A DNA stretch of 64,000 bases from Aeromonas aquatica (lineage in GTDB: Bacteria > Pseudomonadota > Gammaproteobacteria > Enterobacterales > Aeromonadaceae): assembly GCF_000764655.1 (NCBI RefSeq), contig NZ_JRGL01000021.1:1-64000 (forward strand), written 5' to 3'. This document shows, in pieces, positions 40,794 through 51,710 of the stretch (position 1 is the first letter of the stretch; each line of letters starts with the position of its first letter). Under the pieces are notes generated by a model. It worked only from the letters and a program-made list of their open reading frames with translations, did not search any database and was not told where the DNA came from. A program made the translations under genes and the position numbers.

Positions 40794-42844
40794 CGGGCAC
40801 AGACATGATCGCGCGCTTGAAACAATTGGCCCTGGCGGGCCGCATTCGCCAGCTGGATCTGCAATTTTCCAAACTGGTGGCGGATCTCGGTGGCAGTCCC
40901 GAGCTGGTGCTGGGGGCGGCGCTCGCCTGCTTCGAGCTGGGCCGCGGCCACGTCTGCCTGCCGCTGGCACTGCTGACACACGACGGCCGGGACAAGGGAT
41001 CCTGGCGCCCGTTCGGGCTGGATCCGGATCAGAGCCGGGATCTGCTGGGGGATCTGGAAGCTCCAGCCCGCTGGCCCGCCTTGTTTGCGACCTGCCCCCT
41101 GGTCGGAACGCAGGAGCATGAAGGGGAAGCCCCCCGCTGGCCGCTGCGGCTGTGGCAGGGGCGGCTCTACCTCACCCGCTACCACGATTTTGAGCTGGGG
41201 GTGGCCCGCCATCTGCGCTTCTTGAGCGAAAAGGCCGAATGGCCGGAGATAGCCCCGGCTCTGTCGCGGCTGTTTGCCCGCGACTATGGACTCGTCTTCG
41301 GCGCCCTGCTGGACGCGCGCCTCTCCTCCGATTTTTCGGCTCGCCACTTCGTCGAGAAGTATCTGGATCTGGTGTCACCGGCCGAGGTGGACTGGCCTCG
41401 GGTCGAAGCCCTGCTGGCCAGCGCCCAGGCGGCGAGCGAGCTGAGCGCGCTCGATGCCCTGGTGCCCGAGGCGCTCTGTTGCAACGGCCAGAAGCTGGCG
41501 GCGGCCACGGCGGCGGCGCGCCCCTTCGCGGTGATCTCCGGCGGTCCCGGCACCGGCAAGACCACCACGGTCGCCAAGCTGCTCGCCATCCTGGTGGAGA
41601 CCGGCCTGCAGCAAGGCAAGGCAACCGCCATCCGGCTGGTGGCCCCCACCGGCAAGGCGGCGGCGCGGCTCACCGAGAGTATCGGCAGCGCCTTGCAGGG
41701 GCTGGATCTGGCCCCCGAGGTGGTGGCCGCCATCCCCACCGAGGCGGGCACCCTGCACCGGCTGCTCGGGGTCATCCCCGGTCGCAGTCAGTTCCGCCAT
41801 CACGCAGGTAACCCATTGCATCTGGACTTGCTGGTGGTGGATGAGGCCTCCATGGTCGACTTGCCCATGATGGCGCGCCTGCTGGACGCCCTGCCCAGGC
41901 ACGCCCGCCTGATCCTGCTCGGCGACAAGGATCAGCTCGCCTCGGTAGAGGCCGGGGCCGTGCTCGGCGATATCTGCAGCTTCACCGCTCAGGGGATGAG
42001 CCCCGAGCAGGCGGATTGGCTCTCCCGCCAGACCGGCTACCGGCTGCAGGGCAGGCCAGCAGGGGCTCCGGTGCGCGACAGCCTCTGCCTGCTCACCAAG
42101 AGCTGGCGCTTCGACCAGCATTCCGGCATCGGCCAGCTGGCGCGGGCCTGCAACGGCGGCGATGCCGCCGCGCTGGAGGCGGTCTGGAGTGCGGGATTCA
42201 AGGACATCAGCCTGCACCCCTGGGCGGGAGAGGCCTACGAGGCCCTGATTGCCCAGGGGGTGGCCGGTTACGGCGCCTATCTCAAGGCTGCCCGCGAGGG
42301 CATGGATCCCGCCGCCGTGTTCAAGGCGTTCAATGGCTTCCAGCTGCTCTGCGCCCTGCGGGACGGCCCCTTCGGGGTGCTGGGGCTTAACGAGCGCCTC
42401 GAATTGGCCCTGTCTCGGGCTGGCCTTATTCAGCGCGATGGCGACTGGTATGCCGGCCGCCCCGTGATGGTGGTGCGCAACGATCACGGCATCGGCCTCT
42501 ACAACGGCGACATGGGGCTCTGCCTGCCCGATGAAACCGGCCGGCTGAAGGTGTGGTTCGAGCAGCCGGACGGCAGTCTGCGCGCCCTGTTGCCGAGCCG
42601 GCTGCCACCTCACGAGACCGTCTATGCCATGACCATCCACAAATCCCAGGGCTCCGAGTTTGCCCACACAGTGCTGGTGCTGCCCGACAGCCCCAGCCCC
42701 CTGCTGACCCGCGAGCTGGTCTATACCGGCATCACCCGCGCCAAGGCGCGGCTCGATCTCTACGGCGATCGCGCCCTATTGGCACAGGCGGTACGGAAAA
42801 AGACCGAGCGGTATTCAGGATTGGCACAGAGGTTGGGGGAGTGA
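40790..42844 (+). CDS. recD: RecBCD enzyme subunit RecD (5'-3' helicase)
   Basis: RecD is the fast 5'-3' helicase motor of RecBCD. The 684-residue protein shows Walker A GGPGTGKTTT (Lys257), Walker B VVDEASMVDL, and the C-terminal motif MTIHKSQGSEFAHTVLVLP. The ATG overlaps the recB stop as ATGA. A weak hairpin (42854-42874) follows the stop, and the AT-rich defence island begins about 40 bases downstream. Confidence 0.95.
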   Translation: MTGTDMIARLKQLALAGRIRQLDLQFSKLVADLGGSPELVLGAALACFELGRGHVCLPLALLTHDGRDKGSWRPFGLDPDQSRDLLGDLEAPARWPALFATCPLVGTQEHEGEAPRWPLRLWQGRLYLTRYHDFELGVARHLRFLSEKAEWPEIAPALSRLFARDYGLVFGALLDARLSSDFSARHFVEKYLDLVSPAEVDWPRVEALLASAQAASELSALDALVPEALCCNGQKLAAATAAARPFAVISGGPGTGKTTTVAKLLAILVETGLQQGKATAIRLVAPTGKAAARLTESIGSALQGLDLAPEVVAAIPTEAGTLHRLLGVIPGRSQFRHHAGNPLHLDLLVVDEASMVDLPMMARLLDALPRHARLILLGDKDQLASVEAGAVLGDICSFTAQGMSPEQADWLSRQTGYRLQGRPAGAPVRDSLCLLTKSWRFDQHSGIGQLARACNGGDAAALEAVWSAGFKDISLHPWAGEAYEALIAQGVAGYGAYLKAAREGMDPAAVFKAFNGFQLLCALRDGPFGVLGLNERLELALSRAGLIQRDGDWYAGRPVMVVRNDHGIGLYNGDMGLCLPDETGRLKVWFEQPDGSLRALLPSRLPPHETVYAMTIHKSQGSEFAHTVLVLPDSPSPLLTRELVYTGITRAKARLDLYGDRALLAQAVRKKTERYSGLAQRLGE

Positions 42845-42906
42845 GCGATTGGACGGCGGTAAAGGGATTCGCCGCTGTCAACGTATAATTTTTTAGGAAT
42901 GAAATA

Positions 42907-44184
42907 TTATTTCTCATTTATTTCTTTAATAAGGCGCCCCCAAAGAGGCTTTAATTGCTTTCTGATCGCATTAGATCCCATTATATTCGCCGCCTTATGG
43001 CCATAGGTGATGAAATTTCTCTTGCTTAAATGCGAGTAACGCTCATAAATTTTCTTTTTAAATAGTGGTGTTTTAGCCACTCCTTCTTTTTCTTCAATGA
43101 GGTTGGCTTTTTGGTGTGTCTTTTTAGCTAACCTTATCCCAGCTTTCATTCTGCCTGAAAACCTAGCCAGGGCTGCTGATCTAATTAATTTTCTTTCGCC
43201 ATCATAAATAAAGCCTAAGTACTGTAGTGGCTTGTCGCATTTTTGAACTCCACAGTATGTATGGAAAGTTCTAACTTCTGTTTTTTTATCATTTATCTCT
43301 ATTTTTAGTTCGGAGATATGTTGTGTCACTAGAGAAATCAACTCGCTAGTTTTATCACTGTCGATGATAAAAAGCATATCGTCACAGTAGCGATAGTATT
43401 CTCCTGAAATAGATTTAACTATGTCTTTTATTTTCTTGTCAAAATCTAGCATATATATATTAGAAAGAAGGGCGCTTATAGATGTTCCTTGTGGTATGCC
43501 TCTCCCAGTCGAGTTGGTTTTTATTAACTCAAGGCCTCGCACTTTCTCTCTGAAGGTTTTTATATCGCAAAGCCTTAATCCTGCAGCTTTGGGGTTGTTT
43601 TTCGATATTTTAAGTGCTGTATACAATAGGTCTCTATTGACCACAGAAGATTTAGTTAGAGACCTATATATATTGAAGTGGTCATTGGGTAATGAATTCT
43701 TTTGGAGTAGTTTGCACCACATTGATTTGAGTATATCATGGTCTAAATTATCAAAAAAACCAGAGATATCCATCGCGATTGCAGTGCAATTACCATGGTC
43801 CTTTATTTTTTCAAAGGCTATGTTAGCAAAATCAATATTACTTTTCCCAAGAGTTCTAAAAGCAAGTACTGAGTCTTGCAGTTGTGATTTATCGAGAGCT
43901 TTTTCATATAAATCAGATAATAACTCTGCATAGTAAGAATAAATATGAGAGTCGATATGTGATGCGTATGAGATTGGTCTTGTTTTGATTTTTTTTAGAA
44001 CATTGCCATCTTTGTCTATTGATATTTTAAGACTTTGTATATCGTACTTGATTAGCGGAAAGAAAGCATGCTGGGCGATATTAAGAGGAGATTTGACTAT
44101 TTGACATGCTTTCCGTAATTTTACTGGAGAATCAAAATGTAAGTAGCCACGACTCCGAAACCATTTATTTTCTGAGTTCATCAT
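42907..44184 (-). CDS. drt2: Antiviral reverse transcriptase, DRT2 (UG2) type
   Basis: This 425-residue reverse transcriptase is expected to copy a neighbouring noncoding RNA into concatemeric cDNA during phage infection. Visible motifs are TAIAMDISGFFDNLDHDIL (motif A), GRGIPQGTSISALLSNIYMLDFD (motif B), YRYCDDMLFI with the catalytic Asp-Asp (motif C) and LQYLGFIYDG (motif D). The start WFRSRGYLHFDSP and the AYASHIDSHIYSYYAELL-type stretch near residue 75 recall UG2 proteins. There is no second protein domain. AAAGG lies 6 bases before the ATG. The gene is clearly AT-richer than its neighbours, a sign of transfer. A group II intron RT is unlikely: no maturase or intron domains are present. 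Confidence 0.88.
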   Translation of the reverse strand: MMNSENKWFRSRGYLHFDSPVKLRKACQIVKSPLNIAQHAFFPLIKYDIQSLKISIDKDGNVLKKIKTRPISYASHIDSHIYSYYAELLSDLYEKALDKSQLQDSVLAFRTLGKSNIDFANIAFEKIKDHGNCTAIAMDISGFFDNLDHDILKSMWCKLLQKNSLPNDHFNIYRSLTKSSVVNRDLLYTALKISKNNPKAAGLRLCDIKTFREKVRGLELIKTNSTGRGIPQGTSISALLSNIYMLDFDKKIKDIVKSISGEYYRYCDDMLFIIDSDKTSELISLVTQHISELKIEINDKKTEVRTFHTYCGVQKCDKPLQYLGFIYDGERKLIRSAALARFSGRMKAGIRLAKKTHQKANLIEEKEGVAKTPLFKKKIYERYSHLSKRNFITYGHKAANIMGSNAIRKQLKPLWGRLIKEINEK

Positions 44185-44457
44185 GTAGAGCCTTTAATTG
44201 CAAAACCCGGAAAGGTAAAGGACTGTGGCCATCCGATTCCCAATCCGGGCTTAACAAACGTACTTAAATACGCATTCACAACATCGATATGATGTCGGCC
44301 ACGAATGTCAGATATGATATATGATACCATCATCGCAGGAGTGTTCGACGTGAGTCTACTAGCCATCTGCGGCCATGCAAGTCGTCTGCTAGCCAGTGTA
44401 CTGGTGCGCGTTCTACTTGACAGCTTGTGATACACCTTACTTCCTAAATAAGTAAGC
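44185..44457 (-). ncRNA. Candidate DRT2 noncoding RNA (template for cDNA synthesis)
   Basis: Between a promoter at 44464-44492 and the RT start codon lies about 270 nt, the size I recall for the characterised Klebsiella DRT2 RNA (about 280 nt). The predicted 5' end opens with a hairpin of CTTACTT and AAGTAAG (44456-44436). Near the 3' end, CCCGGA pairs with TCCGGG (about 44248-44207), extended by A-T pairs. Two ACA triplets, at 44428-44426 and 44308-44306, lie exactly 120 nt apart. GGTGT just before the first can pair with ACATC after the second, which would bring them together. The ends are predictions; transcription has not been shown. Confidence 0.75.
44306..44425 (+). other. neo: Predicted neo repeat unit: 120-nt template encoding an endless 40-codon frame
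   Basis: Read on the strand opposite to the RNA, the frame beginning TCA at 44308 is open through the unit. In the chromosome it is closed at once by TGA (44428-44430) and upstream by TGA (44290-44292). If the RT jumps between the two ACA triplets, TTG-TGA becomes TTG-TCA and the frame continues without end, because 120 is divisible by 3. Each 40-residue repeat is hydrophobic and helix-prone (for example VSLLAICGHASRLLASVLV). The same joint builds a promoter (TTGACA at 44417-44422, 17 bases, TATGAT at 44320-44325). AGGAG (44338-44342) then precedes a GTG start at 44350. Expected role: a growth-arresting protein made only after infection. Confidence 0.72.
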
Positions 44458-44463
44458 GAAGTC

Positions 44464-44492
44464 ATAATAAATTGTGATGAGAGCTAACACAA
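44464..44492 (-). promoter_or_regulatory. Predicted promoter of the DRT2 RNA-RT transcript
   Basis: On the minus strand TTGTGT (44492-44487) and TATTAT (44469-44464) are separated by exactly 17 bases. The predicted start, near 44457, falls at the base of the first hairpin of the RNA, which supports both calls. Confidence 0.6.
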
Positions 44493-44568
44493 TAAAATAT
44501 TGTCTATATATATTGAGCTTTGCACTCCACCTCGTAAAACAACTTTTTATATTTTAAAAGTTTCGTAT

Positions 44569-44638
44569 GTTGGGCTTCGCAGGCTCAGCACCAACCTACC
44601 GATTGTGTAGGTTGTGGTTGAGCGAAGCGAAGCCCAAC
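44569..44638. repeat. REP-like palindromic element at the island edge
   Basis: GTTGGGCTTCGC (44569-44580) and its exact complement GCGAAGCCCAAC (44627-44638) enclose an inner dyad AACCTAC (44593-44599) / GTAGGTT (44607-44613). The whole can form a long cruciform. Elements with this TGGGCTTCGC core are common dispersed repeats in proteobacteria. It marks the right end of the AT-rich DRT2 island. Confidence 0.75.
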
Positions 44639-44663
44639 GTTTACCGTCAAATCTCTTTTTTCC

Positions 44664-44785
44664 TCCCCTCATCCCCAGCCCTTCTCCTCCTTTTTTAATA
44701 AACGGGAGAAGGGAGCAATACCGTTACCGCTGTCCGATTACGCTTCGCTAATCGAACTTACGAGAGGGCCAGGGTGAGGGGCCAA
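44664..44785. repeat. Imperfect inverted repeat, MITE- or REP-like
   Basis: CCCCTCATCCCCAGCCCTTCTC near 44664 faces GAGAGGGCCAGGGTGAGGGG ending near 44783, with an inner GGGAGAAGGGAGC. This is a dispersed type of non-coding element. Together with the neighbouring REP-like repeat it fills the gap to the VOC gene. No target-site duplication was established. Confidence 0.5.
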
Positions 44786-44793
44786 CCAAGGGG

Positions 44794-45192
44794 CTAAACA
44801 GTCAGCTCCAGCCGGTTGCCTTCGGGATCGAGGAAGGTGCTCTCGTAATAGCCATCGCCGGTCCAGCGGGGGCCGTCCAGGTGTTTCACCTCGGCCCCCT
44901 TCAGCAGCTTGAGGCGGGCTGTCATCTTGTCCACCGCCTCCGCGCTGCCGAGGGCGAAGGCGATATGGGCCAGCCCCTGCAGCGGGTGCGGCAGGCTCAA
45001 ATCCGCCGGGAAGAGGATGGGGGTGTGCATCAGCTCCAGGTTGGCGCCCTCCTCGAAGCGGATAAAGTAGGAGCTGAACTGCTTGGTCGGATTGTGGTAG
45101 CGCTCATTCGCCTGCCCGCCAAACAGGGTGCAGTAGAATGCCTTGAGTGCCTCCAGATCCTGCGCCCAGATGGCAACGTGATGGATGTGCAT
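44794..45192 (-). CDS. VOC-superfamily (glyoxalase/bleomycin resistance-like) protein
   Basis: The 132-residue protein starts MHIHHVAIWAQDLEALKAFYCTLFGG, a typical VOC first module with a metal-ligand histidine. It ends GYYESTFLDPEGNRLELTV, the second module with the Glu ligand. AAAGGAGA precedes the chosen start at 45192. Family members include glyoxalase I and dioxygenases; the reaction here is unknown. It is divergent from an AraC-family gene, which may regulate it. Confidence 0.85.
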   Translation of the reverse strand: MHIHHVAIWAQDLEALKAFYCTLFGGQANERYHNPTKQFSSYFIRFEEGANLELMHTPILFPADLSLPHPLQGLAHIAFALGSAEAVDKMTARLKLLKGAEVKHLDGPRWTGDGYYESTFLDPEGNRLELTV

Positions 45193-50788: not shown

Positions 50789-51030
50789 GTATCCGCGTCC
50801 TGCCCCTGGATGGCTGAGGCTGGCGATCTGGGGTGTAGTCTTCTGGGCGGCTGACTGTGGGAGCTAGCTGGCTGCGAAGCAACGGTCGATGCGAGCTATT
50901 TCGTATCTGGATGGGTAAGGCGGGCAAGCTTGGGCATAGTCACCCGGTGGCTGATCATGCGGTGTCACTGGTCGCGACATTGTGGCTGCCGGGAGGGGAC
51001 GTGAGGAGAGTGCGCCGAAAATCGGGCAAC

Positions 51031-51056
51031 AAAAAACCCGCCTAGGCGGGTTTTTT
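51031..51056. terminator. Terminator downstream of the cold-shock gene
   Basis: AAAAAACCCGCC and GGCGGGTTTTTT form a symmetric 12-bp hairpin with a two-base centre. It can act for the minus-strand csp gene and for anything arriving from the left. Confidence 0.9.
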
Positions 51057-51107
51057 CAATTCTTGCAGAAGGTCTTTCCGATGAACGGGAAGGCTTCCTG
51101 GCTTGAA

Positions 51108-51320
51108 TTACAGACCAACTACGTTGGCAGCAGCCGGGCCTTTCTGGCCTTGCTCGATGGTGAACTCAACGCGCTGACCTTCGTCCAGAGTTTTGAAGCT
51201 GGTGGACTGGATAGCGGAGAAGTGTACGAACACGTCTTTGCCACCGTCAGCAGGGGAGATGAAACCGAAGCCTTTCTCAGCGTTGAAGAACTTTACGGTA
51301 CCAGTCATTTTGTTAGACAT
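51108..51320 (-). CDS. Cold-shock protein of the CspA family
   Basis: The 70-residue single-domain OB-fold protein binds single-stranded RNA and DNA and melts mRNA structure in the cold. RNP1 is KGFGFI and RNP2 is VFVHF. It starts [20 protein letters not shown] at 51320 behind GGAAATTATT. A long untranslated leader rich in A and T is apparent upstream, as expected for cold-inducible csp genes. Which of the several Csp paralogues it is cannot be decided. Confidence 0.93.
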
Positions 51321-51710
51321 AATAATTTCCTTAATAGTGATATTGAAACGCCACGGTTGCGGCAATCCATGATTTTTCGTCAGCAATACGTATGAGGAGC
51401 ACTAAAGAAGGAAATTATTTGGCAAGAATCATCTGGGACAACTCTATACACAAATCACTGCTTTAAAATGACTGCCTAACATAATCAGGTCTGAACTACC
51501 GAACCATCGAGAGTGATTAAAACACGCTCTCCTCGTCATGGCAATCTTTATCTTGGTGTTAATTACCTCCACCCAGAGTGTTTGAAGGTGTTTGTTTTGT
51601 AAAAGTTGTTTTTCACCAGATAGTTATAGATGTGTTCAGGACGAAAATAGCGAGGATGGGTTGCCATGTCCGGACGGCAGGATAAGCGCCCGGACATGGG
51701 CATGAAGGGA
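51321..51710 (-). other. Leader and promoter region of the cold-shock gene, plus inverted repeat
   Basis: There is no gene here. The AT-rich part adjoining csp is probably its long 5' leader. CCATGTCCGG (51664-51673) and CCGGACATGG (51690-51699) form a perfect 10-bp inverted repeat with a 16-base loop, just after the stop of the next minus-strand gene. Without a T tract it is a possible but unproven terminator. Confidence 0.5.

Follow-up and report, generated by a model that had tools for sequence, protein, structure and literature searches.

A DRT2 reverse transcriptase locus of Aeromonas aquatica with a predicted neo repeat gene, and the jump triplets and unit lengths of its relatives

The DRT2 locus and its genomic surroundings

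The window, by which we mean the whole 64,000-nt stretch of Aeromonas aquatica DNA analysed here, carries a DRT2 locus (42880-44560) between recD and another gene, presumably of the VOC type. The gene of the DRT2 reverse transcriptase (RT; 42907..44184, minus strand) encodes 425 amino acids with YCDD at residues 266-269, and the predicted template RNA (ncRNA) lies just upstream of it on the same strand. The RT belongs to the Drt2 (UG2) family and has a YxDD active site. In the PADLOC comparison it matches the Drt2 model PDLC02173 over the whole length with 655.7 bits (E 9.1e-198), against 92.3 bits for the best other family, RT_UG17, and 54.4 bits for the Drt9 model, and by these scores it is a member of neither the UG17 (DRT10) nor the Drt9 family. 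A Pfam RVT_1 match and a nearly full-length match to the solved DRT2 chains in the PDB (E 1.5e-141) were also obtained. The closest relatives compared at the DNA level, L002-L005 from Rheinheimera, Alishewanella and Thalassobium, share 55-58% RT identity with the window. At the protein level there are closer ones in Aeromonas, with 92-97% identity.

The RecD protein adjacent to the locus shows 99% identity to one assigned to A. aquatica, in line with the Aeromonas host. recD is matched in 36 of the 37 genomes of the genus, and its 3' side is a variable spot, with different reading frames there in the 26 loci examined; half of the ten tested proteins encoded 3' of recD match PADLOC defence models (PDC-S50, DzbA, PDC-S08, PtuA and, weakly, LmuB). 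An element with inverted self-matches, recurring in several related recD-side loci, occupies 44563-44715 of the window, and a cspA thermoregulator RNA (166.8 bits) is found on the minus strand at 51028-51490.

The template RNA and its scaffold

The predicted DRT2 template RNA extends over 44190..44457 on the minus strand, with both ends inferred; the 5' end was placed from the handle hairpin, from the -10 box and from the stretch of about 28 nt that precedes the K. pneumoniae template. Its scaffold is like that of the Rfam family RF03016 (RT-12), which matches 44197-44310 (minus strand) with model positions 1-117 and a score of 47.6 bits, little above the gathering score of 44.2. The model starts two bases ahead of the landing triplet described below and is therefore without the template and the 5' handle. 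This handle, a hairpin CUUACUU...AAGUAAG (44436..44456, minus strand), stands directly before the template; in L003 and L005 its stem has other letters with the pairing kept, as judged by eye. The structured RNA upstream of the RT includes a pseudoknot, formed by strand 1 GUGGC (44298..44302) and strand 2 GCCAC (44225..44229), which compensate each other relative to the commoner GCGGC/GCCGC, and a tower stem, with its 5' strand at 44240..44249 and its 3' strand at 44206-44215, all on the minus strand.

The RNA scaffold is conserved and its pseudoknot covaries. In an alignment of 28 rows (the window plus 27 relatives, hand-picked for spread from the 58 with a unit), standard pairs fill 84.8% of 693 cells, a figure somewhat favoured by the structure having been drawn with the Rfam consensus in view, against 31-50% in versions with one side slid. 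The count covers the pseudoknot, tower, inner and outer stems; the buttress stem was left out because it is out of register between rows, and the outer stem was kept though it includes a pair that does not form in 24 of the 28 rows. At the pseudoknot pair 12/132, 17 rows have CG, 10 have UA (the window included) and one has something else. Taken as a whole, the RNA does not stand out in folding energy (z -1.44).

A candidate promoter of the ncRNA was picked by eye on the minus strand: a -10 TATTAT (44464..44469) with five of six consensus letters and, 17 bp from it, a -35 TTGTGT (44487-44492) with three of six. A sigma-70 scan of 42800-44800, stricter than the eye, gave no match at this place.

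A 120-nt unit that becomes an endless frame when joined

On the plus strand TGT, which is ACA in the RNA, stands at 44306-44308 and at 44426-44428, with a spacing of 120 nt, and the template is thus flanked by matching triplets: ACA-1 (44426..44428, minus strand), the predicted take-off triplet whose copy is the cDNA end TGT, and ACA-2 (44306..44308, minus strand), the predicted landing triplet. The repeat unit of the predicted concatemeric cDNA is 44309..44428 (plus strand), a single-occurrence sequence in the host genome, and the 40 codons of the predicted neo frame cover 44308-44427 (plus strand). This frame is open from TCA (44308-44310) to TTG (44425-44427) and is closed in the chromosome by TGA at 44428-44430. 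Joining base 44428 to base 44309 converts this TGA to TCA and leaves an unbroken 40-residue repeat (SDMIYDTIIAGVFDVSLLAICGHASRLLASVLVRVLLDSL); the unit length is divisible by three, and only this one of the three cDNA frames is open, and endless, once the unit is joined. An earlier sequence-only reading had named the same frame, and direct inspection of the sequence bore it out on the positions of the ACA triplets (right to the base), the extent of the open frame, its chromosomal stop and the exchange of TGA for TCA. That reading had also taken divisibility by three together with an open frame as its criterion, which holds here but had been given too much strength, since among 5000 dinucleotide shuffles of the 420-nt region upstream of the RT 27.7% contained two ACA triplets, spaced by 99-153 nt and by a multiple of three, whose joining gives an open frame; the criterion alone is therefore weak.

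The decisive feature, unnamed in that reading and carrying most of the weight, is a promoter at the junction. Its -35 TTGACA (44417-44422, plus strand) and its -10 TATGAT (44320-44325, plus strand; one mismatch) come to lie 17 bp apart once the ends are joined, and the promoter exists only across the predicted join. With at most one mismatch and a spacing of 16-18 allowed, a junction promoter arose in one of 20000 shuffles of the unit, and a junction promoter combined with an open frame in none of the 5000 shuffles of the region. Downstream follow, on the plus strand, AGGAG (44337-44341), the predicted ribosome-binding site of neo, and, 8 nt past it and in frame, GTG (44350-44352), the predicted start codon. 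GATAT (44311-44315, plus strand), adjoining the landing triplet, has the letters of the cDNA primer on the K. pneumoniae DRT2 RNA, the corresponding primer-binding site in the RNA being AUAUC; many relatives differ at this site, which is therefore better seen as a feature of K. pneumoniae than as a strict mark of the family.

The predicted repeat protein

The sequence-only reading described the repeat as hydrophobic and helical. It is hydrophobic, with a GRAVY of 1.27 (range over 59 units 0.16 to 1.34); the helical part is weakly supported by a model of one Neo unit as a single helix over residues 2-39 (pLDDT 76, pTM 0.35). The same reading regarded the repeat sequence as specific to this locus, which is partly right, but the units of L002-L005 are 48-53% identical to that of the window, with the likeness mostly in the N-terminal half, as seen by eye. 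These four relatives resemble the window in their ACA/ACA triplets, the 120-nt distance and the junction codon TCA, a codon recorded for L003 and L004 along with a GTG start; they differ from it in the C-terminal half of the repeat and, in L002 and L005, by an ATG at the position of the start codon.

Synonymous changes are not clearly favoured in neo: 18 pairs of relatives gave 69 synonymous changes and 157 others (90, 58 and 78 changes at codon positions 1, 2 and 3), and a control frame in the same pairs had the identical 69/157 split. The support that the relatives give to the neo frame covers its openness, its length and its control elements.

Unit lengths and open frames among relatives

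The first set of relatives comprised 88 loci (L002-L089), namely 80 genome loci, the best of 84, together with 8 of at least 80 viral loci. Units were anchored by a take-off motif and a landing motif 80-160 nt apart, a rule blind to divisibility and frame, and this succeeded for the window and 45 relatives; each of the 46 lengths is divisible by three, with the same frame open. Five of the remaining loci had poor anchors with no open frame and 38 had none; 26 of the 88 had no anchored unit by this rule or a second one, and laxer anchors later gave units in a few of those 26. Of 98 loci, five truncated or distant ones were set aside and the other 93 were submitted to a general rule, which uses the -35, a -10 at 17 bp and the pseudoknot and ignores triplets, divisibility and frame. 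This rule found all anchors in 64 loci and not in 29, and 61 of the 64 units are multiples of three and open. Six further loci were anchored, each with an open unit that is a multiple of three, and four retried loci had no anchors. L009 fits with an ACA at 129 nt, yet it was missed by the general rule.

The combined set of 70 units, window included, consists of 64 from the general rule and six from the first. Sixty-seven are multiples of three, and in all of these the same frame (frame 2) is open, as against none of 67 for frames 0 and 1. A start codon at ribosome-site spacing is found in the neo frame in 62 of the 70, in another frame in three and not at all in five. Close relatedness and shared units are common among these loci, so that the counts do not stand for independent events; a better argument than the number of loci is that the 67 units come in thirteen lengths, from 99 to 153 nt. 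The anchored relatives that break the multiple-of-three rule are three Pseudomonas loci (L050-L052), discussed below. A partial DNA match was seen in two of 5426 E. coli genomes.

Comparison with known systems

The mechanism of DRT2, a system described in 2024, and its conservation in relatives are in print (Tang et al., PMC11100668; Wilkinson et al., PMC12039810). As in the published descriptions of the K. pneumoniae system, the window has a Drt2 RT, an upstream RNA, a 120-nt unit between two ACA triplets, the GATAT primer site (in K. pneumoniae GATAT is the DNA primer on the RNA; PMC12039810), a junction promoter of the form TTGACA-17-(TATAAT-like), a ribosome site, a start codon and one open 40-codon frame (PMC11100668, PMC12039810); a pseudoknot is also common to the two (PMC11100668, PMC12039810, PMC12596737). 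The window differs from the K. pneumoniae system in its GTG start, its -10 TATGAT, its other 40-residue repeat and its Aeromonas host, and it is known from sequence alone. When the K. pneumoniae neo start was changed to GUG only part of the defence was kept (PMC11100668, PMC12039810), which implies that the start there is another codon. DRT9 and DRT10 likewise make RNA-templated repetitive cDNA; as these systems are published, the DRT9 product is a homopolymer cDNA, and DRT10 makes a tandem-repeat cDNA with an unclear immune role (PMC12483538, PMC12632851). The window RT matches the models of both, Drt9 and UG17, far less than that of Drt2.

The window is accordingly a new member of DRT2 that follows the published mechanism, not a new mechanism. 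A literature search, with supplements holding homolog tables outside its scope, brought up no Aeromonas DRT2 neo and no other jump triplets, and the main texts of PMC11100668 and PMC12039810, taken apart from their supplements, do not contain the words 'Aeromonas', 'GCA' or 'wobble'. Beyond the window, two features of the relatives look new: GCA and ATA landing triplets that still pair, and, in three Pseudomonas loci, units of 125 nt with a frame that passes over the junction a single time and ends where the next start codon lies.

Proposed mechanism at the window locus

We propose that the window very probably holds a DRT2 locus, likely an anti-phage one, whose RT copies 120 nt repeatedly into a promoter-bearing endless gene. 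The fit to the published DRT2 mechanism, already suggested by the sequence-only reading, is supported in each feature that sequence can test (RT, RNA, triplets, unit, promoter and start). By analogy with K. pneumoniae, cDNA synthesis would start at GATAT (44311) from the 3' end of the RNA. After copying ACA-1 (44428-44426) the RT would jump back to ACA-2 (44308-44306), where the cDNA end TGT would presumably anneal, as in K. pneumoniae, and be extended again. Joined in this way, the cDNA would have two things that are absent from the chromosome, a promoter and a reading frame without end. If the K. pneumoniae model applies, phage infection would lead to a double-stranded concatemer, and transcription from the junction promoter would yield a repetitive hydrophobic Neo that arrests growth. 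The locus adds an Aeromonas member, with a predicted junction between 44428 and 44309, to a system whose gene exists only after reverse transcription.

The open joined frame might be a coincidence, the cDNA being copied without being a gene, as for DRT9 or DRT10. The 27.7% of shuffles with an ACA pair, a length divisible by three and an open frame would allow for this, as would the 69/157 split of changes that neo has in common with its control frame, but a junction promoter with an open frame was met in no shuffle, the same frame is open in every one of the 67 units at thirteen lengths while the other frames never are, and the RT is of the Drt2 and not the Drt9 type (655.7 vs 54.4 bits); we consider coincidence highly improbable. 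It would be about as surprising to us if this were a DRT2 locus of the same design that is no longer active in the strain. Such a loss would agree with the distribution of the locus, which among the 37 genomes of the genus occurs only in that of the window and so was recently gained or is rarely kept, and with the non-consensus letters of the junction -10 and the proposed ncRNA -35; against it, the RT is full length with YCDD, its protein relatives at 96-97% identity are full length as well, and the RNA pairs, triplets, promoter and start are all intact. That the real product is a 94-aa ORF of the RNA strand (44181-44465, minus strand), a small protein gene coupled to the RT, was rejected as next to impossible. 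In its favour, the ORF is present with a stop that overlaps the RT start, and L006 has an uninterrupted RNA-strand frame across the corresponding stretch, at a distance to the RT that is equal modulo three. Against it, the other five of the six relatives compared have stops in all three RNA-strand frames and a spacing between ACA-1 and the RT that is not equal modulo three, and the stretch is occupied by an RNA family with a covarying pseudoknot.

Jump triplets other than ACA/ACA

In the 64 loci of the general rule the take-off/landing triplets are ACA/ACA (43), ACA/GCA (11), ACA/ATA (6), GCA/GCA (2) and ATA/ATA (2), and in all 64 the landing triplet is compatible with pairing to the cDNA end, with up to one G.T wobble accepted. 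Five ACA/GCA loci and one ACA/ACA locus read off later fit the same rule, giving 70 of 70, a set that overlaps the 70 combined units and is not identical with it. None of the 70 anchored loci has GCA/ACA or ATA/ACA, the combinations in which a C.A mismatch would remain. The loci that are not ACA/ACA are L014, L020, L022, L038, L041, L042, L045, L048, L050-L055, L058, L060, L063, L064, L087, L195, L196 and L205-L209.

Mapped on a quick RT tree (SH-aLRT support only), the five triplet labels need 8 changes. The GCA/GCA locus L055 adjoins the ACA/GCA locus L054, and the ATA/ATA loci (L053 and L195, with identical RTs) fall in one clade with ACA/ATA; the mixed ACA/GCA and ACA/ATA loci look like steps toward matched GCA/GCA and ATA/ATA. 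The other GCA/GCA locus, L038, has only ACA/ACA and no ACA/GCA neighbours on this tree, and no stepwise path is seen there. Since the pairing survives any single transition in ACA, the mixed class is by itself weak evidence; the loci with matched GCA/GCA or ATA/ATA weigh more but are few (three changes on the tree).

These variants support annealing of the cDNA end as the mechanism of the jump, and the relatives suggest which base pairs set it. By this model the landing triplet would drift to GCA or ATA through a G.T wobble with the cDNA end, and the take-off triplet would then follow, giving GCA/GCA or ATA/ATA. As a joint proposal, a jump set by three base pairs, a landing triplet that drifts by G.T wobble with the take-off triplet following and, in Pseudomonas, an array of finite 42-aa genes (see below) may be entertained, although we would sooner expect some part of it to fail than the whole to hold. 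The triplet comparison makes the annealing model of the template jump a testable prediction.

Pseudomonas units of 125 nt

L050-L052 are three Pseudomonas loci with different surroundings and 125-nt units. Their frame starts at an ATG at ribosome-site spacing, crosses the junction once and ends at a TGA that overlaps the next ATG (ATGA), with a predicted product of 42 aa. A 125-nt unit would turn the endless frame into an array of identical 42-aa genes, each crossing one junction, and this raises the question of whether Neo must be endless at all. When the units were shuffled with the control elements fixed, an ATGA ending was found in 364, 429 and 407 of 5000 shuffles (7-9%); with this frequency and three closely related RTs, the finite 42-aa frame is a lead rather than proof. 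Reading the units instead as 126 nt (with an extra base at the junction) or as 123 nt was rejected, the frame opening in L052 only.

A search of viral contigs with the L050 protein gave no more DRT2 loci. The 398 genomes of the family of G570 (likely Pseudomonadaceae) contained five more, none with a 125-nt unit; all five have endless units of 132 nt. As to the setting of other relatives (among L082-L087, L196 and L200), DRT2 loci were also seen on viral contigs, in E. coli close to genes of Cro/CI and YdaT, and beside an integrase gene on a conjugative plasmid of Photobacterium.
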